DNA of 64,000 nucleotides from Lunularia cruciata (Eukaryota > Streptophyta > Marchantiopsida > Lunulariales > Lunulariaceae), in NCBI GenBank assembly GCA_948567375.1, contig OX419760.1, positions 61,438,911 through 61,502,910 of the forward strand, read 5' to 3'. Of this stretch, positions 872-64,000 are shown piece after piece. Below the pieces are notes generated by a model. The model did not search any database. It saw only the letters and a program-made list of their open reading frames with translations, and had not been told where the DNA came from. Numbering within the stretch: the first letter of the stretch is position 1; each line of letters starts with the position of its first letter. The position numbers were made by a program, and so were the translations under genes.

Positions 872-1079
872 TAATAGATTGGAGATTTGAAGTGGTAAAT
901 ATGAAGAGGTGCATTGTCATTTTGGATCTATAGGTTAGAAAAGTTGTTGTAAAATGGTATAGTTATTAGTAACTATTGAAGTGATCTGCCTATTTAAAGG
1001 AGACATTCACAATTCAATGTTGTTTAGTATTTGTAATTTTTGAAGATAGATTAAGTGAAGTGCTGATTTCAATGCTCAT
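1..1079 (+). mobile_element. Giant-LTR copy J, first part (host LTR split by K)
   Basis: This is the inner part of a giant LTR on the plus strand, decayed and cut by the window start. It matches the plus-strand LTR of element C at 53020-55140 in order, and carries the end of the LTR-encoded reading frame followed by a TATTTAAA box at 991-998. It stops at 1079, where solo LTR K begins, and resumes at 4898. The five bases CTCAT at 1075-1079 are repeated at 4898-4902, which shows that K inserted here. Confidence 0.8.
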
Positions 1080-1748
1080 TGTGACAACCCGGAAAATATC
1101 ACTTTGCGGTAATCAGGTAAGTAAAGTTCATTCCCGTAGAGATACAAGTCAGAAATGTCCAAATACAAAGCAAAAAATAACAATGTAGTTCTTCTTGAGT
1201 TCTTCTTTAGTCTCTCAGGTAGAAACCACACCTAGAAGAGAGTAACAAGCACTGATTCACAGTCTTGTCACGAATACACGTTTCTTAATCACAACACCTT
1301 CAACTCTTTCCAAACAATCTTGATTGTGATGATTCAGGGTCTCTTGAAAATGGCACTTCATTGCAAAACAACTTTGCCTCAGAATTGTGTTCCACCCCTC
1401 CACTAAAGGCACAACTTCCTCGATCAAAATTGCTTCACATCACCTTTGCACTGCACTCACAAATGTAGAATACTACCAACACTACAATTCCTCTCAGATC
1501 TGTCAAGGCATTGCTTCAATTGCACTTCACTCAAGATCAAACACACAGAATGAAGACCAAGGTTGCGGAATCCAACATCCAACAAGCACCTTGATTTGCA
1601 CTTCAAATTTCTCCACACACTCACAACCACAAACACAAAGTTGATACTAGGAATCAAGCTCAAGCAATGAGTATTGCTTCATAGCACTTCGTTTTATCTA
1701 TTCTCAAAAATAAGGAGCACTGAACAACAATTCCTTGCGAATGCCACT

Positions 1749-1756
1749 CTTAAATA
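1749..1756 (-). promoter_or_regulatory. Second TATA-like box (P2) of solo LTR K
   Basis: The minus strand reads TATTTAAG, about 670 bp before the LTR end and downstream of the LTR ORF stop. The same box is conserved at the same place in both LTRs of A, in I and, with small changes, in J and H. It is a candidate promoter for genomic RNA; this is inferred from position and conservation only. Confidence 0.45.
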
Positions 1757-1874
1757 GTGAAGCAATTGATAATTATCTTCCTAATGTACCTCTTCCTTAC
1801 AACTCTACAAACCTGCAAATCCAAAATGACAATGCACCTCTTCATATCTGCCTTTTCACATCTCAAATCTGTTA

Positions 1875-4338
1875 CTAATCCGATCCAATGTCTACTTCTT
1901 CCTCAGCTTTCAAACCCAAAGTAACTTTACTTCCTACTACTCTGTCCTTGGGTTTCATAACTCCTACATCCTCTACCAAATCTAACAATTCTCTTTCTTG
2001 ATCTAAAATTTCACTAGTGGGTAATCTATCTAACTCCTTATCTCCCTACCCACTCTTCTCCAATGTCTCCAATGGTAACTCCAAAAACATCTGCATTCCT
2101 ACTTTATCTACTTTGGGTTTTGCTCTAACATCTTTCCAAAGTTTATCTATCTCTAATTTCACTAAGTCTAATCTAATTGTGATATTGTCTTCTACTTCCA
2201 ATATCTTCCTATCTACACGAGTTCTGAGACTGATCAACAAAGCATTCAAGTCTATGTCCTTTGCATGTCTCCTCCTCATCTCCTACAAAAACAACTTCAA
2301 CTTATGCAGCCTCCTCTCTTCAATACGCACATTGGCCTCTGTACTCAACATTGCATCATCCTGATTACGATCTCTTTCAATGGCTCCAATCTCATTTTCC
2401 TCTTCCTTTCCCAATCTACAAGCCAATCTTCTCGTTACATTGCCAATTTTGCTTCAAACTCGGCTTTCACAACCTCCTTCTCCTTCTTCTTCTCCTAATG
2501 TACAATGTTCTCTTCCTAATTGCAAAGTTATTCTCTCAACCTTTCTTCTTCTCTATATTGCACTATCAACTCTCATTGCCACAGCTACTTCTTCTCTTCT
2601 ACACTCTCTATCACCCTATTGAGCTCTTGTTCCTTCTCAGCTACTCTTGCCATAGCATGGATAATCTCTAATCTTGAATCAGCAAATTGCTACTTCAAGA
2701 TTTCATTCTCAGCTACTTGTCTTTCCCTTGCTATGTCACTTTGCTTTATGAGTTCCTCTCAATTCCTTGCTTCTCTCCTCAAGTTCTCAATTACTTGATT
2801 CTATACTACTCCATCTACTTGTAGTACTTCCCTTTCCTCCTCACCTCAGATTATACTCTTCTTCAATTCCAAGTTTTCTTCTTCCAATTGGGCTAATAGT
2901 TGCAACACAGTCTTCACCTTTGGACACTTTGGCTGCATTTCCTTCTTCCGGTGTTCCAACTTCACCAATGAAGGACACATAACCTCCCACAAGTACTCCA
3001 CTCCTTCACTCGTGGCTACTTTGACTTGCGGAGTTATCTCCTTCTTCACCTCTTCTTCTCTTGATACTCATCTTCTTTGCTGCACTCGTCGTATCGGAAT
3101 AGATGCTTCACTTCCCAAACTTACATTCTCCTCTTCTCTTACCTTGCTTGGACCCACTTCACACTTCGCCTTTTGCTTGGAACAAACTCCTTTTTGAATG
3201 GTAACTTTTCTTTCCTCCTGCTCTAGCATTTCATCTTCTAACTTCACGTTACCTTCCTCCTATGTCTCCATCCTGGCTTCTTCTTCTTTTGTGGGTACCG
3301 ATGTCATCTCTCCTCCATCATTGCTATCACTACTCGTGTCTCCACTCTGTAGTGTGAGCTTGGGTTCTTCTTCTCGTTCCGAGTCTTTGGACTTGCACTC
3401 GGCTTTGCCCTCCAATTCTTCCTCTGACGACATGATTACTACCATACCTTTCCTCAGGTTTACCCTTCTAGTCTTTTGAGGTCTTGTTCTTTCAACATCT
3501 TCTCCTTCTCCCTGTCAACTCCTCTTCTTTGACTTCGGAGTACTCACATCCACCTGCACACTCTTCCCCGTTTGCGCGTATTACTCATCGCTGCTCCTGA
3601 TTTGAAGAATGTACTGCTATTCCTCCATGTCGACCTCCTTTCTTACGTCAGGATGGAAATGCGACACCATTCTGTTGCACTACGCCACATTGAGCAAATT
3701 CAGCCCTAGATAGAAATGTGCTGCAAATAGCACAATGTAATGCGGAGGCAATTTATCTCACAAATTCCACACCATCTGTCTTGTTTGCCCATAAAAACAC
3801 TTTGCCCAATTAATCGGCTCTCCTGCAAACATCTTATAGAAGAACACCGCTTGGTGCTTCATCACATAAGTTGTTCTTTCTGGCTTCAAGATTGCCATGA
3901 TCTTCAAGATTGCCACTCACGATCCCTTGCTTGATAAGATCCTTGTAACTCTCTACTTTGTACCCATTCTTCATGGGTACAAAGTAGAGAACAAAAAATG
4001 CTTCAACAAAAAATGCATCTCTCACTTCTTGGGTTTCTTCTGCTACCTCTCCCTTCCCCAAGAACGTGGTACCTTGCTCCGTGCCTCCTTCTCTCCCGAG
4101 TACTAATCTCCAATCCGACTCTATCCAGCGAGCCAAATTTCCTCTCTTCCCTTCTTACTCGGGGCCATCGAGACATCTACTCTCAATTATCTCAATCATG
4201 AATCTTGGAAAGCTCACATTCTAGTTCCACGCCAAGAATGTGATCCGAAGTCGGCTCAAGACTTCAATTCTTGCGATCACATCTAACCTCCAAATCGCAT
4301 GATTTCTCACTGCAAATTTGGAGTTCTTCTTCCCTCAT
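1875..4338 (-). pseudogene. LTR-encoded coiled-coil ORF, decayed (copy K)
   Basis: Reading from an ATG equivalent near 4338 to a TAG at 1875-1877 after the motif DIGSD, this follows the LTR ORF seen in A and C. Recognisable pieces are a RNHAIWRL-like segment near 4270-4300, NGYKVESYKD near 3960-3990, the acidic middle near 3260-3445 and the coiled-coil segment near 2846-3049. Frameshifts and stops break it throughout. No known domain is recognised with confidence. The best-preserved copy of this ORF is in A's 5' LTR. Confidence 0.6.
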
Positions 4339-4897
4339 CCTATCTTTCTTTCTTTCTTCCTCATTGTCTCTTGGATTAGCTCTCTTGAATTCTCCTCTAC
4401 ACACCAACGTGTCTTCGACTCTACTTCCCTTCCCATGATCTCCTGTAGAACGACTCCTCAACGACAAAGGAAAATTACTTGTCATTGCTTTGTCTTTAGC
4501 CTGATTTTCATAGAGTCGCGCCTTCTTCATCTCTCTTCAATTTGAGTTTCTACCAAGAAATCACACCTCTTGCATGCTCCTGTCAACGTCAAGTTTCCTT
4601 CACGCGTATGACCGCCGGTTTTTGAACGGTCTCTTCTTGAATTTCTTGCCCCAAAGGAAAGTTGTTACACTGTCCTTGCCTTGGGTTGAGCACCCTGACA
4701 TGAAGACTTCTTACTTTGGGTTGTATGCTGACAGGGCAATTCCGAGTACTTTGCCTTATGACCCAAAGTCACGTTACCTTGGGTTTCATCCCAAAGACTC
4801 TTTTCTTTGCCTTCTTTGGCCATACAGGTGCAATATGACTTCCCTATACACTTCTTCTTCTCTACTTCAAAAAAAAACAAAAAATGTGGGTACCACA

Positions 4898-5493
4898 CTC
4901 ATCACTTGAGCTTAATTTTGAGTATCAACTATGTGTGTGTATTTGTGAGTGCGTAAAGAATTTTGAAGTGCAAGTTAGTGTGCTTGATGGATGTTGGATT
5001 TCACAACCTTGATCTTTGTTCTGTGTGTTTGATCTTGAGTGGAGTGCAATTGGAGCAATGCCTTGACAGATCTGATAGGAATTATAGTGTTAGTAGTATT
5101 CTGCATTTGTGAGTGCAATGTTGGGTTGATGCAAAGCAATTTCAATTGAGGAAGTTTTGCGTTTAGTGGAGGGGTGGAACATAATTCTGAGGCAAAGTTG
5201 TTTTGCAACAAAGTAGCCATCTTTGGAGAAATATGAATCATCACAATCAAGATTTGTTTGGACAGAATTTGATAGAGTTGTGATTATGGGTGACAAATTG
5301 TTGTGACAAGATTGTGAGTCAATGCTTGTTACTCTCTTTTGGGTGTAGTTACTACCTAAGAGATTAAAGACATAATCAAAAAGAACTATAGTGTTACTTT
5401 GCTTTGTATTTGACCAATTTTGCCTTGTATCTCTATGGGAACAAACTTTACTTACCTGATTACCGCAAAAGTGATATTTGCTAGGTTGTCATA
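4898..5493 (+). mobile_element. Giant-LTR copy J, end part
   Basis: This continues copy J after solo LTR K. It matches the last 600 bp of element C's LTR (57000-57595) and ends GGTTGTCATA, where intact copies end GGTTGTCACA. What follows is the RT remnant of element B, so J probably inserted in B; the five bases after it (TAGGA, 5494-5498) would be its target duplication, whose partner lies left of the window. Confidence 0.8.
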
Positions 5494-6060
5494 TAGGATC
5501 TTGTCCATGAGCCTGTGGAACTCAATAGGAGTGTTCTTTAAGCCAAGTGGTAATAACTTCCACTAATATAACACATCCTTACTATGAGGATCAATAGCCT
5601 AAAATGTTATCTTGGACTTATCCTCCATGATAGTATCAATTGACAATTGATGATATCTTGCTTGAAGATCCAAAGTACTCAAGACCTTTGCATGCCCAAT
5701 TGCATCAAAGATCTCCTCTAATGTAGGCATGGTATACCAATCAGCCCTAGTCTATTAGTTGATAGGAATGTAATCTCCACACATTCGTCTATATGTGTAA
5801 TTGCCATGCATATCTTTCTTGGCTTGCATCACTGTTGTTGATGCATACTCTCCATGTAAAATCTCCACCAAACCAGCCTCAGAAAGGTCACTACTCCGGC
5901 TTTGAGTCAATGTCCTCTCCATATTACTATATTGATAAGGACGTCAAAAAACTAGTGTATTGCTAGTCAGCTCAATCCAAATACCAGGTCCTTTTAGAGC
6001 ACCCAAACCCTTCATACTAAAGGAAAAACAACTCTTGTAGCTCCTCAAGAACCTCTTAAC
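5494..6060 (-). pseudogene. Ty3/gypsy reverse transcriptase remnant of element B
   Basis: Minus-strand translation gives an RT N-terminal half: an ERTLTQSRSS-like lead-in, then GEYASTTVMQAKKDMHGNY, RRMCGDY, DAIGHAKVLSTLDLQARYHQL (here split over frames) and FHRLMDKIL. These correspond to the gypsy RT blocks before the YxDD active site, which is missing because giant LTR J interrupts the gene at 5493. Several stops and frameshifts are present. The remnant lies directly downstream of the methyltransferase-like block, so the two were parts of one polyprotein. The rest of RT, RNase H and integrase would lie left of the window. Confidence 0.8.
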
Positions 6061-6840
6061 TTACCATCTTTCCTCTCTTGTAAGCTTGGGTCCAAGATCT
6101 AGCTCCCATGGATCCTCTGTAACTATCATAGGAGTAGAAGATGGATTGACTGGCTGCTACACTAGGCCCTTGGGAGAAGTAATGGCATGCCCCCAACCAC
6201 TAGAGGTTCCAACCTTTGTGTGAAAAACTCCCTCCACTCTTGATCCCATCATATGCACACTATAGAACCTCTTTGGGTAAGAGGTTTGTCCACCAAAGAT
6301 GAAGACAATGAGCACGTGATCCCACTCAGGCTGTATCTAACAAAACAACAAGTCCCATCCAAGAATGGACCTAATGTGTACTTACCACCACCCTAGTGCA
6401 AGAATCACCCATCAAATGGATGTTTCCCAAAATGTAAGCTGGAGAAATGGATTGATGAACCTCCAAAAGTTATAATATCCGTAATATCTCCCAAAACACA
6501 CCTAAATGAAGATCTTGAAGATCCAAACCTTGGCCAACATGTGAATGTCCTTGACATGGCCATCTAGAAATCACCAAATGAACAGGCCCATGTCTCTCTA
6601 AATTATGTGCCTCTAGTAAGGAAATGTTTGCTAGTAGGGCCTTTTGCTAATCCCTAATTATTGACATCAATAGTAACTCAAGATATTGATAGGACACGTG
6701 TACCACATGATGGAGCAAAAATTGCCTAGTAGTCTTATCTCTCTCCACATACAAGTACCTATGTACTCATATACTCACCTGTAATACCGCAACTAGTCTA
6801 GTGCTAATCCCACCAAACAACTCCAATAGATATACTCTCT
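6061..6840 (-). pseudogene. C5 cytosine DNA methyltransferase-like domain carried by element B
   Basis: One minus-strand frame from 6838 reads through a cytosine-5 methyltransferase fold. Motif I is LELFGGIST (about 6800-6826). A YLYVERDK block follows as motif II. Motif IV is WPCQGHSHVGQG, with the catalytic Cys codon at 6554-6556, followed by FWEILRIL. Motif VI appears as YILGNIHLMGDS (6405-6439), where ENV is expected, so the Glu looks lost. Then come LLDTA, VGSRAH and WWTNLLPKE (6281-6344). Seven in-frame stops make it non-functional. It lies between the retropepsin and RT of the same element. C5 methyltransferases inside gypsy elements have been described in charophyte algae; activity of this copy is excluded by its damage. 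Confidence 0.8.
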
Positions 6841-7351
6841 CTATTGGATACTACCAAGCAATGAGTGTGGTATCCAAAGGTGTCAAGGTAATCCACTCTA
6901 GAGGCTCATCCTCACATTGGTCTCCTGGTGGTACAAAGGATCCACTCCAAGCCTATTGCACCAATCGATCTACATGCTACTACAATGCTTCCTCTGAACT
7001 CCACAATAGGACATTCAAGGTGGATGGAACAATCTCACTCATACTCCAAATCCAAGTGATCTCCTCTAGTACTGGAGTATCCTCTACATGGACGTTCCCC
7101 TCCCATAAATCACCAAGCCAAGTAACTGCACCATTGAAAGCTGAAACTGATGCTACCATGGTCTTGGATTGTAGTGAGCCAAGATTGTCATTGCTGAAGC
7201 ATATAAGTAGGCAACATACTTGTTCCTCACCTGAATACCAACCTAGTCTATAGGAGGTTATCTACTCCCAATAGTCAATACTAAAACCCATGGAGTATAA
7301 CACTGCTCCACCAACTAACACATCATATGACTCAACTATTGTTGCAATAGC
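6841..7351 (-). pseudogene. Element B retropepsin C-terminal part and linker to methyltransferase
   Basis: The minus strand continues the frame interrupted by element A: AIATIVESYDVLVGGAVLYSMG, here split over two lines of sequence, then FSIDYWE and a stop. The DVLVGG segment is the end of the retropepsin fold (compare LLLGRPWL in other elements). After it, 7250-6841 holds about 130 codons of acidic, Trp-rich linker (VTWLGDLWEGN, ITWIWSMSE) which I cannot assign; it may be the methyltransferase N-terminus. A TTGAG duplication at 7352-7356 marks the insertion of element A into the pro coding region. Confidence 0.65.
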
Positions 7352-7356
7352 TTGAG
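7352..7356. repeat. Target-site duplication of element A (left copy, TTGAG)
   Basis: TTGAG directly before the LTR start TGTGACAACC; the same five bases follow the other LTR end at 21532-21536. Removing A and one copy restores the retropepsin reading frame of element B. Confidence 0.9.
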
Positions 7357-8025
7357 TGTGACAACCCGGCAAATATCACTTTTGCGGTAATCGGGTAAGT
7401 AAAGTTTGTTTGCGCAGAGATACGAGTCAAAATTGTCCAAATACAAAGCAAAGTAACAATTGTAGTTCTTCTTGGTTGCGTCTTTAATCTCTTAGGTAGA
7501 AACCACACCCAGAAGAGAGTAATAAGCACTGACTCGCAATCTTGTCACAAATTCACACTCCTTAATCACAACTCCATCAAATCTTTCCAAACAATCTTGA
7601 TTGTGATGATTCAGGCTCTCCCGAAAACGGCACTTCATTGCAAAACGACTTCGCCTCAGAATTGTGTTCCACCCCTCCACTGAAGGCACAACTTCCTCAA
7701 TCAAAATTGCTTCACATCAACTTTGCATTGCACTCACAAATGCAGAATACTACCAACACTACAATTCCTCTCAGATTTGTCAAGGCATTGCTTCGATTGC
7801 ACTTCACTCAGGATCAAACACACAGAATGAAGATCAAGGCTGTGGAATCCAACATCCAACAAACACTCTGACTTGCACTTCGAATTTCTCCAAACACTCA
7901 CAAACACAATCACAAAGCTGATACTCAGAATCAAGCTCAAGCGATGAGCACTGCTTCACAGCACTTTGCTTTATCTATTCTTAGAAATAATGAGCACTGA
8001 ACAACATCTGACTACGAATGCCACT

Positions 8026-8033
8026 CTTAAATA
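8026..8033 (-). promoter_or_regulatory. P2 TATA-like box, 3' LTR of A
   Basis: TATTTAAG on the minus strand, about 670 bp upstream of the LTR end, after the LTR ORF stop. Conserved in position between copies. Confidence 0.45.
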
Positions 8034-8155
8034 GTGAACAAATCGACAGTTCTAACAACTATACCGTTCTACAACAACTGTTCTAACTTGCAGATCCAAA
8101 ATGACAATGCACCTCTTCATATCTGTCTATTCAAATCTCAAATCTGTTACTACTC

Positions 8156-10241
8156 CTATCCAATGTCTACTTCTTCCTCGGCTTTCAAACCCAAACCCAA
8201 AGTAATTTTACTTCCTACTACTCTAACCTCGGGTTTCGTATCTTCTACTTCTTCTACCAGATCAAGCAATTCTCTTTCCTGATCTGAAATTCCACTAATG
8301 GGTAATCTATCTAACTCCTTATCTCTCGACCCACTCTTCTCTAATGTCTCCATTGGTAACTCCAAAGACATTTGGACTCATATGTTATCTACTTCGGGTT
8401 TTGCTTCAACATCTTTCCGAAGCTTTTCTATCTCTATTTTCACTAAGTCTAGTCTAATTGAAATGTTATCTTCTACTTCTAATATTTTCTTGTCTACACG
8501 AGTTCTTAACTGGATCAACAAAGCGTTCATATCAGTGTCTTTTGCCTATCTTCGCCTCGTCTCCTGCACCAACAATTTCAACTCGTGCAGTCTTGTCTCT
8601 TCAATTCAAACGTTGGCCTCTGTACTCAACATTGCATTCATTTGGAGGACAATCTCCTTTATCGGCTCCAATCTTGTCTTCCTTTCTCGTTCCCAATCTG
8701 CAAGCCAGTCCTCTCTGTACATTGCCAACTCCTCCTCAAATTTGGCTTTCATCATCTCCTTCTCCTTCTCCTTTTGTACTACCTTCTCCTCCTGATTACA
8801 AAGTAATTCTTGTAATTGGTCTTCTTCTCTTTATTGTGCCGCCAACTCTCGTTGCCAAAGTTGCTTCTTCTCTTCCATATTCTCCATCACTCTATCGAGC
8901 TCTTGATCCTTTGCTGCTACTCTTGCCATAGCATGGATAACTTCTACTCTTGAATCAGCAAATTGCTGCTTCAAGATCTTGTATTCAGCTACTTGTCTCT
9001 CCCTTGCTATGTCACTCTTCTTCACAAGCTCCTCTCGATAGCTCATTTTGGGTTACACTCTTCTTCAACTCCAAGTTCTCTTCATCTAGTCGCGCTAACA
9101 CCTACAACATAGTCTTCACCTATGGACATGTCGACTGCATCTCCCTCTTCTTGTGCTCCAACTTCACCAACAATGGACACACAATTTCCTGCAGGTACTC
9201 CACTCCATTTCTTGCAACTACTTCTTCTTGCATAGAAATCTCCTTCCTTACCTCTTCTTCACCCGATACTTGCCTTCTCCTTTGCAGTCTTTGTATCGGA
9301 ATTGACGCCTCACTGCCCCAGCTTTCTCTGACCTCTTCCTTCACTTTACTCGGCCTTGCTTCACACTTTGCCTTACTTCTTGAGCGAACTCCTTGCTGTA
9401 CTGTGATCTTCCTTTCCTCGGGCACAGTTACTTTGTCCTCCAACTGTGTGTTGTCTTCGGCCTCTATCTCATCATGCACTTCTTCTTCCTCGTATTTGTC
9501 AACTGCTCGCACCAATGTCATCTCTCCCACTTCATCACTATTGCTGCTTGTATCTCCACTCTGCAATGTTAGCTCAGGCTCCTCCTCGTGTTCTGAGTTT
9601 TAGTTCCGAGTTCCGCCGAATTGAGCAAATTCAACCCGAGGTAAAAATATGCTGCAAACAGCACGATGTAGTGTGGTGGCGACTTATCCCGCAAATTCCA
9701 CACCATCTGTCTTGTCCTCCCATGGAAGCACCTTGCCCAATTAATAGGCTCTCCTGCAAACAACTTATGGAAGAACACTGCTTGGTGTTTCATCACATAA
9801 GATGTTCTCTTTGGCTTCAAGATTGCCATGAGAGCACTCACGATCCCTCTCTTCACTGGATCCTTGTAACTCTCAACCTTATACCCATTCTTCGTTCTCT
9901 TCAAAGAGAAAGTGTCCCTCACTTCTTGAGTCTCCTGAGCTATCTCTCCCTTCCCTTAGAACGTGGCCCCCTGCTCCGAGCCTGCTTCCTTCCCGAGTAC
10001 GAGTCTCCAATCCAACTCTGTCTAGCAAGTCGGATTTGCTCTCTTCCCTTCTTTATCGGGTCCATCGAGACACTTACTCTCGATGATTTTTTGTCATGAA
10101 TCCTAGAAAACTTACATTCTAGTTCCATGCAAGAAATGTGATCCGAAGTCGGCTCAAGACTTCGATCCTTGCTATCACGTCTAACCTCCAAATTGCATGA
10201 TTTCTCACTGCAAATTCGGAGTTCTTCTTCCCTCCTCCCAT
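8156..10241 (-). pseudogene. LTR-encoded coiled-coil ORF (3' LTR copy of A)
   Basis: The frame begins at ATG 10239-10241 (MGGGKKNSEF-like) and ends at a TAG at 8156-8158. Visible blocks are NGYKVESYKDPVKRG, then VMKHQAVFFHKLFAGEPINW, then PPHYIVLFAAYFYLG, an acidic region with ELTLQSGDTSS, and a long heptad-like stretch (VKKSDIARERQVAEYKILKQQ) followed by an acidic tail. Two deletions and several stops and shifts break it. The N-terminal part is globular-looking and the second half is a predicted coiled coil. I do not recognise the family. Confidence 0.6.
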
Positions 10242-10398
10242 CTCTTTTACCTTTTCACTCTCTCTCTATTTCACTCTTGCGACTTCTCCCTTGCGCACTA
10301 ACACGATCCCAACTCTATTTCCTTTTCTCCGATCACCTGCAAGATGACTTCTCAACAACAAAGGAAAATTACTCGACATCTCGTCGTTGCAGGTTCAA

Positions 10399-10406
10399 TT
10401 TTTATA
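10399..10406 (-). promoter_or_regulatory. P1 TATA box, 3' LTR of A
   Basis: TATAAAAA on the minus strand in the context CAACTCTATAAAAATTGAA, about 390 bp into the LTR and 150-170 bp before the LTR ORF start. It is identical in A's 5' LTR and in C (52328-52335), and mutated in K. Confidence 0.5.
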
Positions 10407-10792
10407 GAGTTGCGCTTCTTTGTCTTTTGTTGCTTCGAGTTTCTACCAAGAAATCACACCTCCGGCATGCACTTGTCACTGTCAATAAACCTTCGCGAGT
10501 ATGGGCTGCCTATTTTAAACGGCCCCTTCTTCAATTTCTCGCCCCGACGAAAGGTTGTTAGACTGTCTTTGCCTTGGGTGGAGCTCCCCCCAATAGGAAG
10601 ACAATTTACTTCGGGTTGTATGCTGACAAGGCATTTCCGAGTACTTCACCTTATGACCCGAAGTCACTTTACTTCAGGTTTCATCCCAAAGACTCTTTTC
10701 TTTGCCTTCTTCGGCCATACATGCGCAATCCAACTTCTCTATACACTTCTTCTCCTTTATTTTGAAAAAACCAAAAAAATGTGGGCACCACA

Positions 10793-10806
10793 TACCCCCT
10801 CCCTCA
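10793..10806 (-). other. Polypurine tract of element A
   Basis: The minus strand reads GAGGGAGGGGGTA immediately upstream of the 3' LTR (TGTGGTGCCC). This is the position and composition expected of the plus-strand DNA primer site of an LTR retrotransposon. Confidence 0.8.
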
Positions 10807-11562
10807 AATGTGAGAGTCCCCGCAAACATAGACCTCGGGTGTTTTAGAAACTTCCGAGTCTATGGTCCAATATTTCCGCACTCTCCACCTGTTTACTCGA
10901 GTGGCAAAAGGATTACCTTCCAAGTCTACAAGCTGCAGGAACCCATTTTCGTAAAGATGAACAACTCGATAGGGACCCATCCATCTCAAATGCAACTTGC
11001 CTGGAAAAAATATTTGGCGATTGTCATATAACAAAACCAAATCTCCTTCTCTTACAGTCACAGGCTTGATTCTCTTATCGTGCGTAACTTTCCTCTGTGC
11101 TTGTACTTCTTTTGTGGTTTGCATTGCATCGTCTCTTTTCTCTTCTAACCACATCAGTTGATGAATCCGAAGATCCTGACTTTCTTCTTCAGACATTCGT
11201 TCTTTGCAAAGAACCCGATATGTCGGAACTTCAAATTCAACTGGCAGTATGGGATGCAAGCCATATGTCAAGAAGTATGGAGTTTGTTTGGTTGTAATCT
11301 TCTCTGTCGTTCGATATGCGCACAACACGGCTGGTAATTTTGTATCCCAGTCATAGGCATAATTGATAGTCACCTTATTCAAAATTTTACAAAGTAACCC
11401 GTTCGCTTTTTCCGTTAAACCATTTTCTTTTGGGTTATAAGGAGTCGTCTTCCAATGTTTAATCTGAAAGTACTTGGTTAACGCCTCCATTATAGAGTTC
11501 AAAAAATGTGTTCCTTGGTCACTGACCAATTCTAGAGGACACCCATATCGGGAGATGATGTT
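10804..11562 (-). pseudogene. Integrase C-terminal half of element A
   Basis: This continues the pol frame after a TGA at 11563-11565. It begins NIISRYGCPLELVSDQGTHF, which holds the second catalytic Asp, and includes ENGLTEKANGLL with the catalytic Glu. The C-terminus reads GPYRVVHLYENGFLQLVDL and ends near VNRWRVRKYW, which resembles the non-chromodomain ends of Tat/Athila integrases (VNGQRLKxY). The frame is open from the stop to the end, close to the polypurine tract. Together with the preceding part it completes a DDE integrase apart from one stop. Confidence 0.85.
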
Positions 11563-13533
11563 TCAAAAGAAGAATTCTGCCACAGTTTCAGCATCATCTC
11601 TGCGAGTTGCTTCAGCTTCGACCATCTTGGTAGCATAGTCAATGCAAACCAAAATGTATCTCTTTCTTGTGACTCGGGTCATTGGTTGAATGGGACCCAC
11701 AAAATCAATCCCCCATTTCTCAAATAGGGCCAAAGGAAAAATTGGTCTCAAAGGCCATTGAGAAGTAGCCGTTGGCTTCCCCGTTCTCTGACAAGCATCA
11801 CAACTTTGGATATGAGCATGCACGTCTTTGTACATTGTAGGCCACCAATACCATGCCGAAAGAATTTTCTTTATAGTATTCTTTAGAGCATAGTGTCCTC
11901 CCGATGCTTCGGAGTGTAAAGATTCAATCACGCCTCCTACTTTGTATGACTCCAAGCATCGCCGAAGTACTTCGTCTTCACCCATCTTAAATAAAATGCT
12001 GTGTTTAAGCTGGTACGGCCCCATTTTCCTGAGAAAGACTGCCTGCTGTTCCGGGTCCATCCCCTTAGGACAATGAAGAGTATTCAGATAATTATATTCA
12101 GCTGCATACCTTGTACTTTGTATTGCTGATAAGTGATACAACTCTTTGTCAAGGAACCGATTGTCCATTTCCCACTCCTGGTCTTGAGTTTCTAACCTGG
12201 ACAGGAAGTCTGCATTCGAATGCAAAGCTCCCTTCCTTACTTGTACAGTATACGTGAACTCTTGTAGCAACAAGATCCATCTTGCAATTCGTCCCGATAA
12301 ATCTGCCTTCTTGACCAAGTGTTGCAATGCGTTATGGTCCACATAGAAGACAAACTCATATCCCAACAAATAATGACGAAATTTCTTGTAGGCATACACC
12401 ATTCCGAGTGCTTCTCTTTCAGTCGTAGAATAATTCTTTTCAGAAACTGAAAGTTGTCGGCTGGCATAATACACCGGGTAGTCCTTCTTCTTCTCGTCCT
12501 TCTGACTTAAGATGACTCCAATGGCCATGGACAAAGTGTCCACATATACATGAAAAGGGACGTCCCAGTTTGGGGCCCTCATAACTGGTGCTTCAACCAG
12601 CTTCTTCTTCAACACCTGGAAAGCTTCTTCTTGATTTGCTTCCCACAGATAGTCTTTGGATTTCTTCAGAAGCTTTGTAAGTGGTGCAGCAAGTACTGCA
12701 TAGTTTGACACGAAGCGTCTGTAATATCTGACATGTCCCAAGAAGGCTCTCAGCTCCCGGATGTTCTTTGGGGATTCCAAAGCTGCGATTATCTTAATCT
12801 TCTCAACATCAACTTCAATACCTCGGCTTGACACCCAATGCCCCAGAAGAATTCCCTCCTTCAATGCAAAGAAGCATTTCTCCGGGTGTAATGACAAGCC
12901 GGCAAAATGACACCTTTCAAACATTTGGTGAAGGTAATCTAAATGTACATCTCTTCGACCAAACACACAAAAGTCATCAATAAAAACTTCCACAAATTTG
13001 CGCAGGAAATCTTTGAAGATTGAATTCATCATCTGTTGGAAAGTAGCGGGAGCATTACACAACCCAAAGGGCATTTGATTATTAGCAAAAGTGCCCCAAT
13101 CGGTCGTGAATGTAGTTTTATCCTTGTCTTCTTCTCGGATGGATACCTGATTATACCCTGAAAATCCATCGAGAAAACTATAACAAGGATGCCCAGCTAC
13201 CTGATCTAAAATTGCATCGGTAAAAGGCAAGGGATGATGATCTTTCCTTGTGACTGCGTTCAACTTCCGGAAGTCTTGGCACACTTGGATCTTCCCTGTT
13301 TTCTTCTTTGGAACAATGACAATGGGGGAAACGCATTCACTACTTAAGACAGGGAAGATGATTCTGGCTCCTAAGTACTTGTTGATTTCATCTTTTACCA
13401 AAAGCGAGTACTTTGGGTTCAGACGGTATTGTCACTGCCAAACCGGAACTGCACCTTCAACCAGATCAATCCGTTGTTCTCCAAATTCTTGTGGAATACC
13501 CGGCATTTGATCAATAGACCAGGCGAATACATC
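11563..13533 (-). pseudogene. Reverse transcriptase, RNase H and integrase N-terminus of element A
   Basis: About 610 open codons lie from 13401 down to 11566. RT blocks: VSPIVIVPKKKTGKIQVCQD, YSFLDGFSGYNQV, MPFGLCNAPATFQQMMN and the active site EVFIDDFCVFG. RNase H: FHVYVDTLSMAIGVILSQ, then YYASRQLSVSEKNYSTTERE and VDHNALQHL. Integrase: a GGHYALKNT to CDACQR zinc-binding region and FEKWGIDFVGPI with the first catalytic Asp. The stretch 13402-13533 is the N-terminal lead-in (VFAWSIDQMPGIP) with one stop at Gln-Arg (CGG in element C). It is Ty3/gypsy by its RT-RH-INT order and clearly related to C. Confidence 0.93.
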
Positions 13534-14592: not shown

Positions 14593-15000
14593 CTCGGCTT
14601 GGATCAGACCCTTTACTTTGGATCAGATGTCCACCGGAAAAATTGGAGACTTCGTCTTTGTCTCCTCTTCCAAACTCAGTTCCTGAGTCCTAAGTAGTGC
14701 TTCCTTTAGTTCTTTCTGCAAGGCTTTAGCTTTAGCTTTTGCGTGGATCTTTTCCTCCTTAGCAGAAAGAATTGCTTTTGGGTGCCGTCTTTTTGCCTTT
14801 CTCAAAGACGACAAGGTCGTACTCAGTTCTTTGGGATCACGCTTCTTCTTACTAGAGCGTGTCTCAACCTTCAAAATTTCAAAGTCCGGCCATTCTCCTT
14901 CTGAGGCCGGACTCCCTTCTTGAGGTCTTTCTTCCTCAAGGGTAATGCAATTTACATTTGTATCCCCCTTTGGCTGAAGTGCTGCACGCTCAGCGGGGGT
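14593..15000 (-). pseudogene. Basic gag-pro linker of element A
   Basis: This Lys/Glu-rich stretch (KVETRSSKKKRDPKEL, then AKEEKIHAKAKAKALQKELK) joins the gag zinc knuckles to the protease. It is flanked by stops at 15001-15003 (TAG, CAG in C) and near 14623 (TGA, CAA in C). Element C has the same stretch open at 59540-59972, so gag and pro-pol were one frame in the ancestor. Confidence 0.75.
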
Positions 15001-16916: not shown

Positions 16917-16975
16917 ATTGCATTGATACCTAGTTTCCAATTTGGCTTTGTATTCTTCCACTTTCGAGATTTGTA

Positions 16976-16994
16976 TCCCCAGCAGGAAGGCCAA
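16976..16994 (-). other. Primer-binding site of element A (altered)
   Basis: The minus strand reads TGGCCTTCCTGCTGGGGAT six bases after the 5' LTR end. Element C has TGGCGCCGCTACCGGGGAT at the same place, close to the tRNA-Asp-type site of plant Tat/Athila elements. Outer bases agree but nine central bases differ. Confidence 0.7.
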
Positions 16995-21531: not shown

Positions 21532-21536
21532 TTGAG
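21532..21536. repeat. Target-site duplication of element A (right copy, TTGAG)
   Basis: TTGAG directly after the LTR end ACCACA; identical to 7352-7356. Confidence 0.9.
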
Positions 21537-22101
21537 CTCTCACCATTGAGCTATCAATCAAATAACTAGGCTGAATCTAAACAACTAGCTCTCCACATGT
21601 GATGTAATATGTCAAACCACCTTGTAGAGATGTTTGGATCTGAAATGGACACCTCTCCACATTCGTCTTCCGTTACTCTAGACCGACAACTGTAGCCTTC
21701 CCCAACATAAGGAGTTACGCACTAGAGTCTAATAAGCCTCTATGAGGTGTATAGACCTTCCCTAAAGATTCCACCAAACAGAAAATCCCCCTTTGGTTAT
21801 CCAATAAGACAACACCAAGTGTGAACCGTGTTCTCTCAAAGGCCGGTCTAGCTGGCAACTCTTCCAATCTAGCCATTGCTACCTGCCATAAACCACTGGT
21901 CGCTGAGCGGATCCCATGCTCCTCAACCAAGTCAGCTCCACTATCAACCACCTTTGCTCTAGAAGAAAGAACCACATCATCCCTACTCTCACAAAGCATG
22001 GCAGCCAATTGGAACATTGGGGTTGGGTCAACTCCCAATGTACACATGTCATTGGCTGAAAATAAAGGATAAGGCATAATCAGCTGAGCCACTCCTAACA
22101 T
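21537..22101 (-). pseudogene. Element B gag-pro junction and retropepsin N-terminal half
   Basis: The minus strand reads a 128-codon open stretch (21715-22101) with LIMPYPLFSANDMCTLGVD, then LWQVAMARLEELPARPAFE, then VYTPHRGLLDSSA. The last part is the retropepsin active-site region, DSGA changed to DSSA, and is followed in frame by stops and LLMLGKATVVGLE, VERCPFQIQTSL and YLIDSSMVRAQ. The same frame continues at 7351 beyond element A. The block therefore holds the protease of the methyltransferase-bearing element. The part before the active site is a linker of unknown role. Confidence 0.75.
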
Positions 22102-23830
22102 TGTGCTAGATTGAGTCTATGTAGTAGTAGGTGGCTGACTAGTAGGTAGTCCATCATGCACCCATCATTACCTACCAAACCTCCACTAGGACATCTAGGA
22201 GCCATGGATGACGTCTATAAGGCCTCAAAGAGCATGAAAGATTGAGGAAGTTTGACTTATCTCCCAACCTCTCTTCTTTGTAGGTCCAACTCCACTGATG
22301 CTCCTCTATGCTCTAGAGCACATATTGCACTCCTGGTCATTGTGGCATATGCATCCACTTGTGCTACTCTACACATGAAATCCAAGGCATCTCTATCACC
22401 AACATATGAGGTGGAAGCCTCAACACCCAAATCTGATCTCCTCTGAGCAATGGCCATATTAGCCAATCTCTACTCCAACTGCTCAATCCGAGTAGCCATA
22501 GTTGTCTTAGAAGTAAGTGCAGGTACTGCACCTCTACTAGGTGTAGATCCTCTACCACCACCTCGTCCTCCATGAACTAGAGCTCCCCTACTACCTACCA
22601 TAACAACCCTACCACTTTGTAACTCTAGGTGTAGGTCAAAGCATCGGTCACTAGAGTAACCATATATGTGATCATGCTCACACTATCTCTGTGTTGGTTG
22701 TGATCCACTAAGAGTATCACGTTTGTTACCCTAAGTGCACTCTCTTCTATGGTGAGGTCCATCACAAGTCTAACAAGCAATGCCACCACTCATTGGCTAC
22801 TACTGACCTAAAAATGAAGGTAAGGGTCTACCTCTACTAGGCCTTCCACTCGCTCTATAGGATCTAGGCTGTCCACCCTGTCCTCAAAAACCAATTGGAC
22901 ATGGTGCACCCTGCTGCACTCTAGAAGAAGTCATAGTTATGGATAAGGTCTTCCTACCAAATCCAGATGTCACCACTCTCTCCTCCACCATGTTGAGCTC
23001 AATATGCCCAGCAAAACCAAAGACCACCACCAAAGTAGGCAAAGTAGCCTATAACAATGCAGTATCACGAACTCTACATTGCAACTCCCTATCCAGTATC
23101 CCATACCAAAATTGTATTGCTTGGCCTCAATAACTCCCTAAGTGAAATTGATCAGCCTTCTCATGCAAGTGTATCCCTCATATAAGCTCTCTCCAACCTT
23201 CCATTGGAACTCCTACAAGCTCCTTAGCTTATCAGTCCACACTTTCTGGTAATTGTACCTCAAACATTGGAAGAACTCCACCATGGAGTTAAATCCCAAT
23301 ACTATATCACCTCTTATAGTGGTACCTCCACTCGTAGTAGCACTATCTCCAACAAGGGCACCTCCACTAGCTCTACCAACGCTACTTGAGCTAGAACTCA
23401 TGGTATAGCCAATCTACCCCTAGCAACCAAGCTTGAAGTGATGGAGACATAGTTTGGAGACCAATACTATCTCCATAACTCAATCTCCTCCAAGTAAGCT
23501 CTCTTGAACTCATGGTACTTGTCCATTGGCGGATCCTCCAAGTGCTGAAATAATCCCTTCTAAGCCATGAAAGGTATGAACAAAGTAAGGTTCCGCATTT
23601 GCTACAGATCACACCAACTATCAAACTCCTGGATGAAGTCATCCCACTCAATGGTACCCATTGTACCAAAGTAATGCCTAGGGCCTTTAGAGGCCCCATA
23701 GCTGTCATCCATATCCCATAACAATGGCACGGACACGCCAAGTGCACTCTCAACTCAATCAACTCCTATGTCAAACTCCAGCTCAAAGTCAATCTCCTCC
23801 CTCATTGGAACTTGAGATACAAGCTAATAC
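22102..23830 (-). pseudogene. Gag of element B (methyltransferase-bearing family)
   Basis: It corresponds to the plus-strand gag of element D: ALGVSVPLLWDMDDSYGASK, a WDDFIQEFDSWCDL block and PPMDKYHEFKRAYLEEIELW near 23450-23800, a Ser/Thr/Gly-rich low-complexity spacer near 23290-23400, then the second half of the capsid-like region. A CCHC-like knuckle of form C-x2-C-x3-H-x4-C (CDGPHHRREC) lies near 22740-22780, and a coiled-coil C-terminus near 22257-22466 (ALDFMCRVAQVDAYATMTR). Many stops and shifts are present. The gag is recognisable by comparison rather than by an open frame. Confidence 0.75.
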
Positions 23831-24332
23831 AAAGTGTCACTCCAAGTAAACCCATTGCGTACTACAGGGCTATCTCCTCTAGAATCCCCAAAGAACTCCG
23901 TCATGACAAAGTAACCATAAACCGCCAACTGCAACCGCAACAACAATCATAAGTACCCCACCAAGAACTAACACCACCAAGTACCAACACCAATTGAAAC
24001 ACCACCAAGTGCCAATACAAACAAAACACTACCCACTAATGTTACTCTATTTGAGATAACTACAGTAGGAGAAAGTGCAACTTGTAACTTGCCATCACAA
24101 CACCCACTCTCACGGTCTATGGGTCATCACTTCTTGCCTCATCAAAAATAAAAAAAGGTAGTATGATTGGTCTTCACTCTAGCATCACCATCAAGAGCAC
24201 ACCGGAGTACCAACGCTCTAAATCTAGGGTACCTCACAAAAGCCTGGTGCACAAACAAGAAGTAGAGAATGGAGGGGGTCCAACCATTAGAAATCTAAAT
24301 GAAAACCCTCCATCTCATTAAGCAACACAAGA
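23831..24332 (-). other. 5' leader of element B
   Basis: Non-coding leader upstream of gag. It matches the leader of D at 62230-62700 in opposite orientation, including GAGATGGAGGGTTTTCATTTAGAT and CATTCTCTACTTCTTG (shown on the element strand). The match ends at 24332, where the family E cluster begins. I see no gene here. Confidence 0.7.
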
Positions 24333-25015
24333 CTAAAACATCCATTTATGCATGTGTGTCGTATAATGATATTTAGCTTGGTATTCCAAATACTTGAGCG
24401 ATATTATTTATATAGAGATAAATGATGGTTCTACATTAGTCATGATTAGCTAAAGTTAGTCATAGTTAAGATAGTGGGGACCTTTACTTTAGAGGAAGTG
24501 TAAAAGATGAGCACCACTATTTTGGATTCTAGTGTGTTGACTTTGTATTATTCCTAAGTATTTGGCTTTGAGGAAAGAGTTGAGAACTCTTGGGCCCACA
24601 AGTCTTTTTGTTTTTAAATTTTCTATAGTCCAAGGATAGCCCATGTGAAGGAATCCTTGACTTAGTGGTTGGGTCAAGATAAGATCACATGCTTAGTGGA
24701 ATATGCCCATGTGGATGGATATTCCTTTGTACTTTTTGACTTTTAGCCTAATAACTTGAGTTATTATGGTGAATTGTAACTTAGTGCGTAACTATTTCAC
24801 AAGTATATTAACAAGGGGTGAGTATGTACTCATTATCCTTTCATTTGCAACTATCTTTTTCTCATTGAGTTCTCTAGTGAGCAATGTCTTGAGTCTTGGA
24901 GTATTAGCCTTGGAAGAGTATGATGGAGTTAGGGTTCTTTGCCTTCTTAGTCTATGGTGTGCTACCATAATAGCCATCAAAGGTTCATCCTTAGTGAGAG
25001 ATAGATTGGCTCACA
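24333..25015 (+). repeat. Family E LTR, outer left copy
   Basis: It starts with a degraded TGTAACACCC (TAAAACATCC) and ends GGCTCACA. It is followed by a 22-base primer-site remnant ATTTTGGTTCTATTGGCGGG plus AA (25016-25037), then immediately by a second E LTR. It is about 88-90% alike to the next copy by eye. Confidence 0.85.
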
Positions 25016-37178: not shown

Positions 37179-38115
37179 GTCTTTTTTTTCACTTTGAACC
37201 CTCTCTAAATGTGGCAAAACTCCTCCAAATTTGGTCAAAATCTGACAAAAATCTAACATAAAATCTGACAAAATTTCTTAAAGTTGGCTGACCGGCAAAT
37301 CCTCTACTAACTCTTCACTTGAGCCAAATTGAAAAAATGGGTTTCACCAAATCACAAAATCAAAAGGGTGGGTTCCCAACTCCACCTTCAATTTCACTTT
37401 TTGAGCCAAACTCGCAACAAATTGGTCATGTTTTCACCTCTTGAGCTCAAAATCACAACTAGCGCTTGAAAATTGCTTCTCTTTGCTTGAAATTTGTCTA
37501 GCACTTCCGCACACCGTCTACCTCACTGCCAAATCTGCATCAATCAAACAAGTTTCTGCACACTAGGGAAAATTTGAACTCTGATTGAGCTACCAATGAT
37601 CAATGAGTCTTGGAGATACTACCAATACTCTCAATTCATGTTCCCAATTTCCCCTTGACCTGAATTCTTTGATGTAATAAGTTTGTTTACACCACTCAAA
37701 TCAACATAATTCAGATTAGTACTTGATCTGTCACTTTATAAATTGCCAACAATTGGGCATTGATTATAATCAAGCCACACCCACTCTAGTTAAGAGAATC
37801 CAAGTGACGCTTGCTGACCTTTGTCCACCATAGCCAAGAACTCAAAGGCTTAACATCAGAGAAGTGAGCTCTTTGGAGCTGCACTTTGAAAGTATACCCT
37901 TGGACTTGAGATAGGTTTGAAACCCTAACGGTCTCACTGATGGCACACCCAATGGTGCAAAGTGACGGTGAGCTCCACCACAAGATCAATACCTTGAACA
38001 TGGAATCTGACCGTCGGAAAGTAGTCTATGAGTGATTGCTAAAATATCTCTGACTACTATCACTGCAACTCTAGTGTTCGAGCAATCTAGATGTGACACT
38101 ACAAATGACATGACA
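37179..38115 (-). repeat. 5' LTR of element B
   Basis: On the minus strand it begins TGTCATGTCATTTGTAG and matches the LTR of element D (61150 onward), including GTGAGACCGTTAGGGTTTC and GAGCTCACTTCT. A TATAAA box is at 37735-37740. AATTG at 38116-38120 would be the right target duplication. It is cut at 37178 by the family E cluster. Confidence 0.82.
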
Positions 38116-61149: not shown

Positions 61150-62205
61150 TGTCACGCCATTTGTAGTTCCGCATCTAGATGCTTGGACATTGGAGTTCCA
61201 ATGATAGTGGTTAGAGTTATTCTAGCAGTTTCTCAGAGACTACTTTTTGATGGTTAGATTTTGTGTTCGGAGTACTGACTTCACGGTGGGGCCCATTGTC
61301 ACTTTGCACCGTTTGCACCATTGAGTGTGCCGTCAGCGAGACCGTTAGGGTTTCAATGCTAGCTTGAGTCCAAGGAGTATAGTTTTGAAGTGAGCTCCAG
61401 AGAGCTCACTTCTTTGATGTTGAGCCTTCGAGTTCCTGACTATGGTGGACAGAGGCCGGCGAGCGTCACCTAGATTCTCTATGCTTGAGTGGGTGTGGCT
61501 TGACTGTAATCAGTGCCTAGTTGTTGGCAGTTTATAGAGTGATAGATCAAGTACTGATCTGAGTTGAGTTGAGTTGAGAGTGGTTAGCAATCTGATTACA
61601 AGAAGTGAAGTCAGGGGAAATCGGGTGCAGGAATTGTGAGTGTTGGTGGTATCTCCAAGCTTGGTGGATTGTTGGTAGCTCAATTCAAGTTCTATGTTTC
61701 CCTAGTGTGTAGAAGATCAATCAATTGATGCAGATTTGGCAGTTAGGCGGATGGTGTGCGGAAGCGCTGGCCAAATTTTGAGCAAAGAAGGAGCAATTTT
61801 TGAGCAGTGTTGTAATTTTGAGCTTAGGAGGTGAAGGCAGGACCAAGTTGCTGCGAGTTGGGCTCAGAAAGTCAAATTGAAGGTGGAGTTGGGAAGCTCT
61901 TCTCATGAAATTGTTTGCTGGCGTGAGGCTAGCTAGTTTAGAGTAGATCTTGGTCATTGGTTGGCAAAATCTGCCTTTCTTGCTAGATTGTGCACAACAG
62001 GGTTTGACCCCTAGATCTCTTGTTCCTAGACTGGTGCCCTAGCCAACTGGTGCCCTAGCCAACTGGTCCACCCTCACTTGTTGTCATAGTGACTGTGCCA
62101 CTGTTATCTATACACATGTAGCTTTGGCTAGGAGAGTTTGTTTGATCCCATTCTTGGTGATCTTGGTAGCTTAGGACTTAGATACAAACTGCTCTTATGT
62201 CAAAT
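61150..62205 (+). repeat. 5' LTR of element D
   Basis: 61150-61900 matches B's LTR (38115 down to 37375). A TTATAGAG box lies at about 61532. Beyond 61900 D and B diverge. The end is not certain; a possible primer site TGGTGGCAGAGTTAG starts at 62211, weakly like the initiator-Met type. A short direct repeat GGTGCCCTAGCCAACTG lies at about 62033-62068. Confidence 0.65.
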
Positions 62206-62690
62206 GCCAAATGGTGGCAGAGTTAGTCCCTTTTTGTGTTATGAGATGGAGGGTTTTCATTTAGATTTCTTGTTATTAGACCCCCTCCATTCTCTACTTC
62301 TTGTTTGTGCACCACATTTGTGTGAGGTGCCCTGACTTTTGAGTGTTGGTGCTCTGGTGTGCTCTCAATGGTGAGGCTGGAGTGATGACCAATCAGACTA
62401 CCTTTGTTTCTCTCCGATGAGGTAGGAAGTGATGACCTACAGACCGTGAGAGTGCGTGTTATGATATCAAGTTACAGGTTGCCCTTTCCCCTAGTGTAGT
62501 TATCTTGGTTAGAGTTACATTAGTGGGTGGTGCTTAGTTGGTATTGGCACTTGGTGGTGTTGGCACGTAGTGGTGTTGACACTTGGTGGGGTACTTGCGG
62601 TTGCGACTTGCGGTTGCAATTGGTGGTTCGGGTTTGCTATTGTGGTTACTTTGTCACGACGGAGTTCTTTGGAGATTCCAGAGGAGTTAG
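62206..62690 (+). other. 5' leader of element D
   Basis: Matches B's leader (24332 down to 23850) in reverse. It includes a GGTGTTGGCACGTAGTGGTGTTGAC-like short tandem pattern near 62540-62590. No gene seen. Confidence 0.6.
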
Positions 62691-64000
62691 CCCTGCAATA
62701 CGCAGTGGGTTTACTCGGAGTGGTGCTTGGTATCAGCTTGTATCTCAGGTCCTAGTGAGGGAGGAGATTGACTCTGAGTTGGAGTTAGACACAGGAGCTG
62801 ATTCAGTTGAGAGTGCACTTGGTGTGTCCGCACCGTTGTTGTGGGACATGGACAAGATTTATGGGGCCTCCAAAGGCCCTAGGCGTTACTTTGGTACAGT
62901 GGGTACCATTGAGTTGGATGACTTCATCCAAGAGTTTGACAGTTGGTGTGATCTGCAGCAGATGCGGAACCTAACTTTGTTCACACCCTTCATGGCAAAG
63001 AAGGGGTTGTTTTAGCATCTGGAGGGTCCGCCGATGGATGACTACCATGAGTTCAGGAGAGCTCATTTGGAGGAGATTGAGTTATGGAGACAGTATTGGT
63101 CTCCACACTATGTCTCCATCACTTCAGGCTCGGTGGCTAGGAGTAGATCGGCTGTACCCACGAGCTCTAGCTCGAGTAGTGTTGGTGGAGCTAGTGGAGG
63201 TGCACTAGCTGGAGATAGTGCTACTACGAGTGGAGGTACCGCTGCAGGAGGTGGTATGGTACCGGGGTTTAACCCCATGGTGGAGTTCTTTCTATGTTTG
63301 AGGCAGAACTACCAGGGAGTGCGGACTGACAAGCTGAGGAGCTTGCAGGAGTTCCAGTGGAAGGCTTAAGAGAGCCTACGTGAGGCATACACTCGCATGA
63401 GGCGGCTGATCAGTTTCACTCAGGGAGTTACTAAGGCCCAAGCAGTCTAGTTTTGGTATGGGATACTAGATAGGGAGTGCGACGTAGAGTTCATGATGCT
63501 ACGTTGTTGCAGGCTACTTTGCCCACTTTGGTAGTTGTCTTTGGTTTGGCTGAGCGTATTGAGCTCAATATGGTAGAGGAGAGAGTGGTGACATCTGGAT
63601 TTGGAAGGGAGACCTCATCCACGGCTGTGACTTATTCTAGAGTGCAGTAGAGTGCACCACGCCCAGTTGGTTTTTGAGGACAGGGTGGACAGCCCAGATC
63701 CTATGGAGCAAGTGGGGGGCCTAGTGGAGTTAGTCCCTTACCCTCATTTTTAGGTCAGCAGCAGCCATTGAGTGGTGGTGTTGCTTGTTGGACTTGTGGT
63801 GGACCTCACCATAGGAGAGAGTGTACTCAGGGCAGCGGACCTGATACCTTTGGTGCATCACAGCCAGCACAGAGGCAGTGTGAGCATTGCCACAGATTTG
63901 GTCACACTAGTGACCGGTATTTTGACCTACACCCGGAGTTACGGAGTGGTAGGGCTGCTATGGTGGGTAGTAGAGGAGCTCTAGTTCATGGAGGACAAGG
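62691..64000 (+). pseudogene. Gag of element D (cut by window end)
   Basis: One frame reads EEIDSELELDTGADSVESAL, LLWDMDKIYGASKGPRRYFG, IELDDFIQEFDSWCDLQQMR, then a TAG at 63013 and PPMDDYHEFRRAHLEEIELW. A Gly/Ser/Thr-rich spacer follows, then NPMVEFFLCLRQNYQGVRTD, a TAA at 63367 and SLREAYTRMRRLISFTQG. Knuckles near 63786-63905 read CWTCGGPHHRREC and CEHCHRFGHTSDRYFDLH; the second has lost its last Cys. The low-complexity spacer inside the capsid-like region is unusual and shared with B. Confidence 0.82.

Follow-up and report, generated by a model that had tools for sequence, protein, structure and literature searches.

The 64,000-nucleotide stretch of the Lunularia cruciata genome analysed here (contig OX419760.1; we refer to the whole stretch as the window) appears to hold parts of two copies, named E and D, of a bryophyte Ty3/gypsy retrotransposon family that carries a C5 cytosine DNA methyltransferase (MT) of the DNMT3 type in its gag-protease frame. 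Cytosine methylation silences retrotransposons, and an element with a de novo methylase of its own is therefore a paradox. No earlier report of a gypsy-borne DNMT3-type MT in liverworts and peat mosses was found in the literature searched; retrotransposons with a C5 MT were known before from charophytes and dinoflagellates. Taken together with the mechanism proposed below, we consider this account of E and D to be about evenly balanced between right and wrong.

A methyltransferase between retropepsin and reverse transcriptase

The original prediction, made from the letters of the window alone, was that a gypsy element carried a C5 MT between its retropepsin and its reverse transcriptase (RT), and this is borne out by protein matches and by comparison with copies elsewhere in the genome. 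Every string it had named lies in one minus-strand frame at 6820-6281, namely LFGGIS (6820), WPCQGHS (6562), YILGNIHLMGDS (6436), VGSRAH (6325) and WWTNL (6295), and its count of seven stops in that frame over 6840-6061 was reproduced. Its boundaries needed adjusting: an MT is present in 6840-6061, but the remnant runs from about 6859 to 6239, and the RT placed at 6060-5494 is confirmed, but the frame that encodes it opens at 6156, just past an in-frame TAG (6159-6157). When E was set codon by codon against L021, another copy in the genome, 11 in-frame stops were found in 7356-6239, six of them within the MT, and six of the 11 correspond to CAG in L021. With this many stops, E is a dead copy.

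A Pfam profile check of the decayed domain listed PF00145 as the sole family, but at 11.8 bits (E 0.16) it fell below the cut-off of 22. For searches at the protein level the decayed domain was queried with X in place of each stop. Among 5.8 billion proteins, 29 matched with E ≤ 1, the best at 2.9e-64 and 55% identity; a precomputed PF00145 annotation is attached to 13 of these proteins. The same query against the PDB listed 13 sequences, all DNMT3A (best E 0.13), while P0001, an intact relative among the 29, matched DNMT3A at 6.1e-12. Given these 29 matches and the match of P0001 to DNMT3A, the MT in the window is, to judge by sequence comparison, a real C5 methyltransferase of the DNMT3 type. 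For the MT of L021, the best 29 of 54 PDB sequences listed were DNMT3A, DNMT3B or DNMT3C (best E 1.8e-11), followed by HaeIII (5.6e-4) and DRM2 (0.0034). The motifs of L021 and P0001 run FGG, PCQ, ENV, SRAHR, RAMGF, LGQAMD, which is the unrearranged order from I to X; E keeps motifs I, IV, VI and VIII, with GNI in place of ENV, and a deletion has removed the target recognition domain and motifs IX-X. A structure model of P0001 built on 66 diverse aligned proteins reached a mean pLDDT of 92.5 and a pTM of 0.92, where an earlier model from a shallow alignment had a mean pLDDT of only 42.6.

Three other origins were set aside. Capture of a DRM enzyme was dropped in view of the unrearranged motifs, a bacterial methylase in view of the stronger DNMT3 matches of L021 in the PDB, and contamination in view of several named relatives that lie on contigs of 15-30 Mb. 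Searching IMG/VR with the decayed domain gave zero relatives, and with an alignment query two weak loci (34% and 28%); a phage search listed four records, the best at E 2 and 24.5% identity.

Copies and anatomy of the family in the genome

The assembly (565.8 Mb, 74 contigs) was searched with P0001, and 111 of 13,360 first-look candidates were scored. All 111 matched over nearly the full query length at 72-74% identity, and in 66 of them the MT match was free of stops, as counted by eye; since these are the best-scoring copies, this open share is biased upward, and every locus inspected was found through its MT. Further comparisons used 34 distinct MT copies, made up of eight 18-kb loci, 20 MT regions and 12 search loci, six of which are among the eight.

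Downstream of the MT, the eight whole loci all share one stop and one RT start. The domain order read in one copy is gag, protease and MT in a first open reading frame (ORF1), then UAG CAG, then RT, RNase H, integrase and a PHD finger in a second (ORF2). ORF1 spans 1,428-1,431 codons from stop to stop in five of the eight loci and is shorter or split in the other three. Pfam found PF00145 alone in ORF1 of L021 (29.8 bits, cut-off 22); gag zinc knuckles and a retropepsin motif, DSGAQP, were read there by eye without a Pfam listing. The stretch of P0051 homologous to this retropepsin scores just below the cut-offs for an aspartyl protease, and PF13650 is precomputed on P0049, P0060, P0067 and P0072. 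In the ORF2 pieces of copy L021/L022, RVT_1, RT_RNaseH, Integrase_H2C2 and rve were above cut-off; a DDE integrase was listed and a tyrosine recombinase was not. The C-terminus of ORF2 in L021 is a PHD finger (PF00628, E 2.3e-11), and L023 and L029 end the frame in the same way. The DNMT3-type domain, the ordered gypsy domains and the many genome copies agree with the prediction of a gypsy element with a C5 MT comparable to the charophyte case.

The decay of E would fit a host DNMT3 or bacterial methylase sequence that came to lie beside a gypsy fragment by chance, and nothing more speaks for this. It is refuted by the recurrence of the arrangement in the eight loci and by the protease-MT-RT order in the proteins P0038 and P0066, and we regard its probability as practically negligible.

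Two matching full long terminal repeats at the ends, as in Ty3/gypsy elements, are absent. Repeats are instead found at both ends of seven of the eight loci in the layout A...B-A-B, a split like that of DIRS elements; L015 has no such pair. Read from left to right, copy L021/L022 consists of A, leader, ORF1, TAG, ORF2, a G-rich tract, B, GC, A and B, where A is 449 bp (TGTCACG...CTGATTA) and B is about 107 bp, and the element ends are TGTC...GACA. Target duplications of 4 bp were read by eye in seven of seven loci: AATG (L017), CCTA (L019), ACTT (L021), TAGA (L023), CACT (L025), TGTG (L027) and GTGC (L029), the last of which ends in GC, a dinucleotide found at the B-A joint as well. The left and right A repeats of the seven copies are 96.5-99.3% identical (3-15 differing positions plus small gaps), and these copies are therefore fairly young. 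A 9-bp unit inside the left A repeat varies in number between L021 and L023.

Immediately after the left A repeat come 12-14 nucleotides whose reverse complement occurs, without a mismatch, inside A, 180-190 bases upstream. This self-complement is present in seven of the eight loci, and in six of the seven with split repeats; in E the inner stretch is kept and the primer site has decayed. As background, a 12-nt complement within 460 nt upstream occurred at 14 of 30,672 sampled positions, true cases possibly included. The self-complement points to reverse transcription that may be self-primed. Self-priming has been reported for the Tcn1 and TAR lineages in the accessible parts of Neumann et al. 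(PMC6317226). A primer site for tRNA-Met was also considered and rejected, since the window has four near matches where chance would give 5.06.

The stop codon between the methyltransferase and reverse transcriptase

All 34 copies end ORF1 with TAG CAG, and in 33 of them the six bases after TAG fit CARYYA, a leaky-stop context known from tobamoviruses. Identity of the copies to L021 is 97.7-99.3% across what could be aligned of 2.4 kb, and for this reason the constancy of TAG CAG among them says little by itself. E, at about 84% identity, retains TAG CAG CCA. Of the 36 relatives in which both a protease and a nearly full-length MT are seen, 31 have no RT and terminate 11-181 residues past the MT (for example P0030 from Marchantia with a tail of 73, and P0051 with a tail of 115); such a terminus may be a stop codon, or else the contig or the gene model may run out there.

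Selection and decay

Pairwise pN/pS was 0.37 in the MT, calculated from 34 copies; the corresponding values were 0.39 in the linker (33 copies) and 0.35 in the RT (31 copies). Single changes in the MT comprised 54 replacement and 39 silent, and changes common to at least four copies comprised 4 and 10; the replacement share is lower among widely shared changes (p 0.047 for the MT alone, 0.002 for MT and RT together). By these counts, the MT is under purifying selection similar to that on the RT.

Purifying selection fits any use of the enzyme, including one on the host, where the MT would methylate and quiet rival elements or host genes or damp the element's own spread. Slowed retrotransposition is discussed as an option by de Mendoza et al. 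in the accessible parts of their paper (PMC5890265). The location of the MT in the gag-protease frame points to the particle instead, and we think action on the host decidedly unlikely. The same position, beside Gag and protease, would suit an MT whose role in the particle was to build its structure or to bind nucleic acid, its catalysis being irrelevant. This we take to be very unlikely, as the catalytic motifs are retained: PCQ and ENV are present in 34 of 34 copies, and among aligned relatives with letters at the position in question, 59 of 62 have PCQ and 52 of 66 have ENV. FGGIS and LGQAMD are likewise present in all 34 copies, RAMGF in 31 and SRAHRLR in 29.

Across the 29 gap-free copies, C-to-T differences affect 2.1% of CG, 2.3% of CHG and 0.37% of CHH sites. 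E has the same pattern at 32 of 70 CG, 52 of 136 CHG and 38 of 372 CHH sites. This is the mark of CG and CHG methylation, which would most simply be the work of the host.

Relatives and the position of the methyltransferase

The organism-labelled matches are all bryophytes, namely Marchantia polymorpha, Calypogeia fissa, Sphagnum troendelagicum and Sphagnum fallax. Marchantia polymorpha gave many matches, several of them on contigs of 21-30 Mb; it is a genetic model plant, and its relatives of the family would make the question of what the MT does testable. No match by the name Klebsormidium was found in either protein search, the second of which scored only 8,000 candidates. The RT of the L. 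cruciata copies is nearest to Marchantia P0038 (81%), and in the MT tree E pairs with the MT from its own genome (SH-aLRT 100). That tree has one DNMT3A fragment as its only cellular outgroup, is without host plant DNMT3, and consists of rows all picked by their MT.

The MT lies between protease and RT in proteins from Marchantia and Sphagnum, P0038 and P0066 among them. Twelve proteins of a metagenomic branch have it after RNase H or directly before the integrase. Both neighbours are seen in P0078, P0093 and P0097 (RNase H-MT-integrase); P0094, P0100, P0102 and P0103 read RT-RNase H-MT, and P0081, P0082, P0086, P0095 and P0101 read MT-integrase. Several of the twelve have a PHD finger, and P0078 also has a Tudor domain.

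These two positions could reflect several independent captures of DNMT3 by gypsy lineages, as opposed to a single capture after which the domain moved. For K. nitens, de Mendoza et al. conclude that the capture was an independent one (PMC5890265, accessible parts). Against several captures, ten of the twelve proteins, those long enough, fall together in the MT tree along with two rows of undecided position (SH-aLRT 82, quick search), and the RT tree unites the six that have an RT (100/99). We regard independent captures as somewhat doubtful, and the simplest reading of the trees would be one move of the MT domain between sites in the polyprotein.

A proposed cycle for the element

We infer that an element of this family could methylate its own DNA. 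Because the MT lies in the gag-protease frame ahead of a leaky-looking stop, it would be made with Gag, and RT, integrase and PHD finger would be made only by reading through the UAG, giving many MT molecules and few of the RT-integrase-PHD product in each particle. Reverse transcription would be self-primed, as in Tf1, and with so many MT molecules present the new cDNA would be their natural substrate. Methylated in the particle, the cDNA might arrive resembling host heterochromatin, or be protected. It would form a conventional B-A...B-A molecule and then be circularised, and the integrase would open the circular or two-LTR form at the palindrome GACAGCTGTC, which is the B-A joint, to give the A...B-A-B layout. 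Cutting this joint would remove GC and leave the termini TGTC and GACA, while the second joint would stay whole inside the element. The split repeats follow if circular cDNA is cut at GACAGCTGTC, and a whole inner B-A joint is what is observed. The PHD finger might then direct insertion to chosen chromatin. The placement of the MT before the UAG gives a sharp and testable prediction on dose.

Several points weigh against this account. The 34 copies are drawn from the best-scoring 111 of 13,360 candidates, which favours intact MTs. ORF2, a span of 1,037 codons, is broken by at least one stop or frame break in every one of the eight loci, and for that reason no wholly intact element is found among them. 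Five of the 36 protease-MT gene models (P0034, P0038, P0040, P0042 and P0066) continue into RT or domains beyond it; these may be real fusions, or the gene predictor may have spliced the parts together. Reinitiation could also get past the stop. In L023 the primer complement is disrupted, and no compensating change accompanies this. A host maintenance system explains the C-to-T decay without the element's enzyme, and this decay is not evidence of self-methylation. The charophyte enzyme gave no methylation in yeast, a result its authors deem inconclusive in the accessible parts of their paper (PMC5890265).

A broader version of the proposal would hold that this is a streptophyte-wide gypsy lineage, spanning charophytes and bryophytes, in which the MT is packaged at Gag level ahead of a leaky UAG, cDNA is methylated before integration, a DDE integrase opens the circle at the B-A joint, and the MT has moved between sites. 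We consider that version unlikely.

Parts of E and D and other repeats in the window

Other elements sit between the pieces of E, which at 38115-37214, 24334-21533, 7356-6243 and 6238-5494 are about 80-85% alike to L021 on the minus strand. Matches below are given to positions of the L021 element unless stated.

37214..38115, minus: E, left terminal A repeat and start of leader, 79.7% to 1-909
37695..38115, minus: E, A repeat, also 80.0% to the right A repeat at 9401-9838
21533..24334, minus: E, leader, gag/CCHC region and N-terminal retropepsin, 84.3% to 1411-4209
6860..7356, minus: E, C-terminal retropepsin and linker to the MT, tblastn match to L021 ORF1
6239..6859, minus: E, decayed C5 MT (motifs I, IV, VI, VIII) with six in-frame stops, from motifs and protein matches
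6238..6243, minus: E, deletion point of about 609 bp, 5320-5928 unmatched
6157..6159, minus: E, stop TAG, then CAG CCA, between the gag-protease-MT and RT frames, common to the family
5494..6156, minus: E, N-terminal part of the gypsy RT, tblastn to L021 ORF2 residues 1-219, 76.0% identity
1..59, minus: E, RT continuation (6715-6773), 94.9% over 59 bp, then leaves the window
61150..64000, plus: D, left end into gag, matching 1-769 and 1117-3171, then leaves the window

Residues 829-1200 of L021 ORF1 match 7354-6239 by tblastn at 71.8% identity, and the first two stretches of E, 37214..38115 and 21533..24334, are separated by other sequence at 24335-37213. The retropepsin is split as had been claimed, being interrupted by a nested gypsy element at 7357-21531. 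D, proposed as a second family member, proved to be one, at 91.7% over 1-769 and 93.2% over 1117-3171. Its MT begins outside the window, in locus L051; FGGIS and PCQ are retained there, a single stop is present, and after motif IV other DNA interrupts the domain. Past this break, at about 400-2001 of L051, lies a repetitive pyrimidine-rich stretch whose translation is a recurring short phrase.

The nested element is on the minus strand with a 5-bp target duplication (TTGAG), long terminal repeats at 7357-10793 and, with extra pieces, 17001-21532, a gag ORF of 590 codons and a pol ORF of 622 codons. Searching proteins with this gag ORF gave nothing at E ≤ 1e-10 among 8,000 candidates scored. 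More repeats of its long-LTR family lie at 1-5494 and 47060-57595, in both orientations. A further gypsy element on the plus strand (27645-31741) has protease, RT and RNase H; three of its ORFs were scanned with Pfam, and an MT was not among the families listed. The stretches 24329-28385 and 33160-37183, each about 4 kb long, are inverted relative to one another and 86.8% identical, and they contain direct repeats some 700 bp in length.

Comparison with known systems

The closest known system is KnitGypsy-Dnmt3 of Klebsormidium nitens, a gypsy element in which de Mendoza et al. (2018, PMC5890265) described a Dnmt3; it is compared here by the accessible parts of its published description. It shares with the bryophyte family a DNMT3-type unrearranged MT, gypsy domains, DIRS-like repeats and purifying selection. 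The bryophyte family differs in occurring in land plants with many low-divergence copies, and in that the gag-protease frame includes the MT and is closed by a conserved UAG, whereas the MT of KnitGypsy-Dnmt3 is described in the Pol ORF. A PHD finger and 4-bp target duplications are found in the bryophyte family, and neither is mentioned for KnitGypsy-Dnmt3 in those parts of the description.

SymbioDIRS-Dnmt3 and SymbioLINE-Dnmt of dinoflagellates are also retrotransposons with a C5 MT, the DIRS type having the A-coding-B-A-B layout, and the dinoflagellate enzymes gave CG methylation in yeast, according to the same portions of PMC5890265. These elements use a tyrosine recombinase or LINE machinery, while the bryophyte family has a DDE integrase and target duplications. 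The same two features set it apart from DIRS elements in general, with which it shares the split direct repeats. DNMT3A and DNMT3B are the best PDB matches and have the same motif order, I-IV-VI-VIII-IX-X; the element's MT, in contrast, is inside a polyprotein, and its PHD finger is at the far end of the other frame. Tf1/Sushi and Tcn1 are self-primed gypsy elements, which the bryophyte family may resemble in its putative primer site, complementary to the element's own upstream repeat; the bryophyte family differs from them in its split repeats, MT and PHD finger.

Marchantia methylation and bryophyte chromatin papers (PMC5784723, PMC10952607) show no such element in their accessible parts, and no earlier report of MT-carrying gypsy elements in bryophytes was found in the open-licence literature. 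A 2019 opinion paper states, in the portion accessible, that land plants such as tracheophytes are without such elements (PMC6338049). The bryophyte matches contradict the wider form of that statement, and the sequence evidence supports extending the charophyte case of KnitGypsy-Dnmt3 to land plants, in the liverworts and peat mosses.
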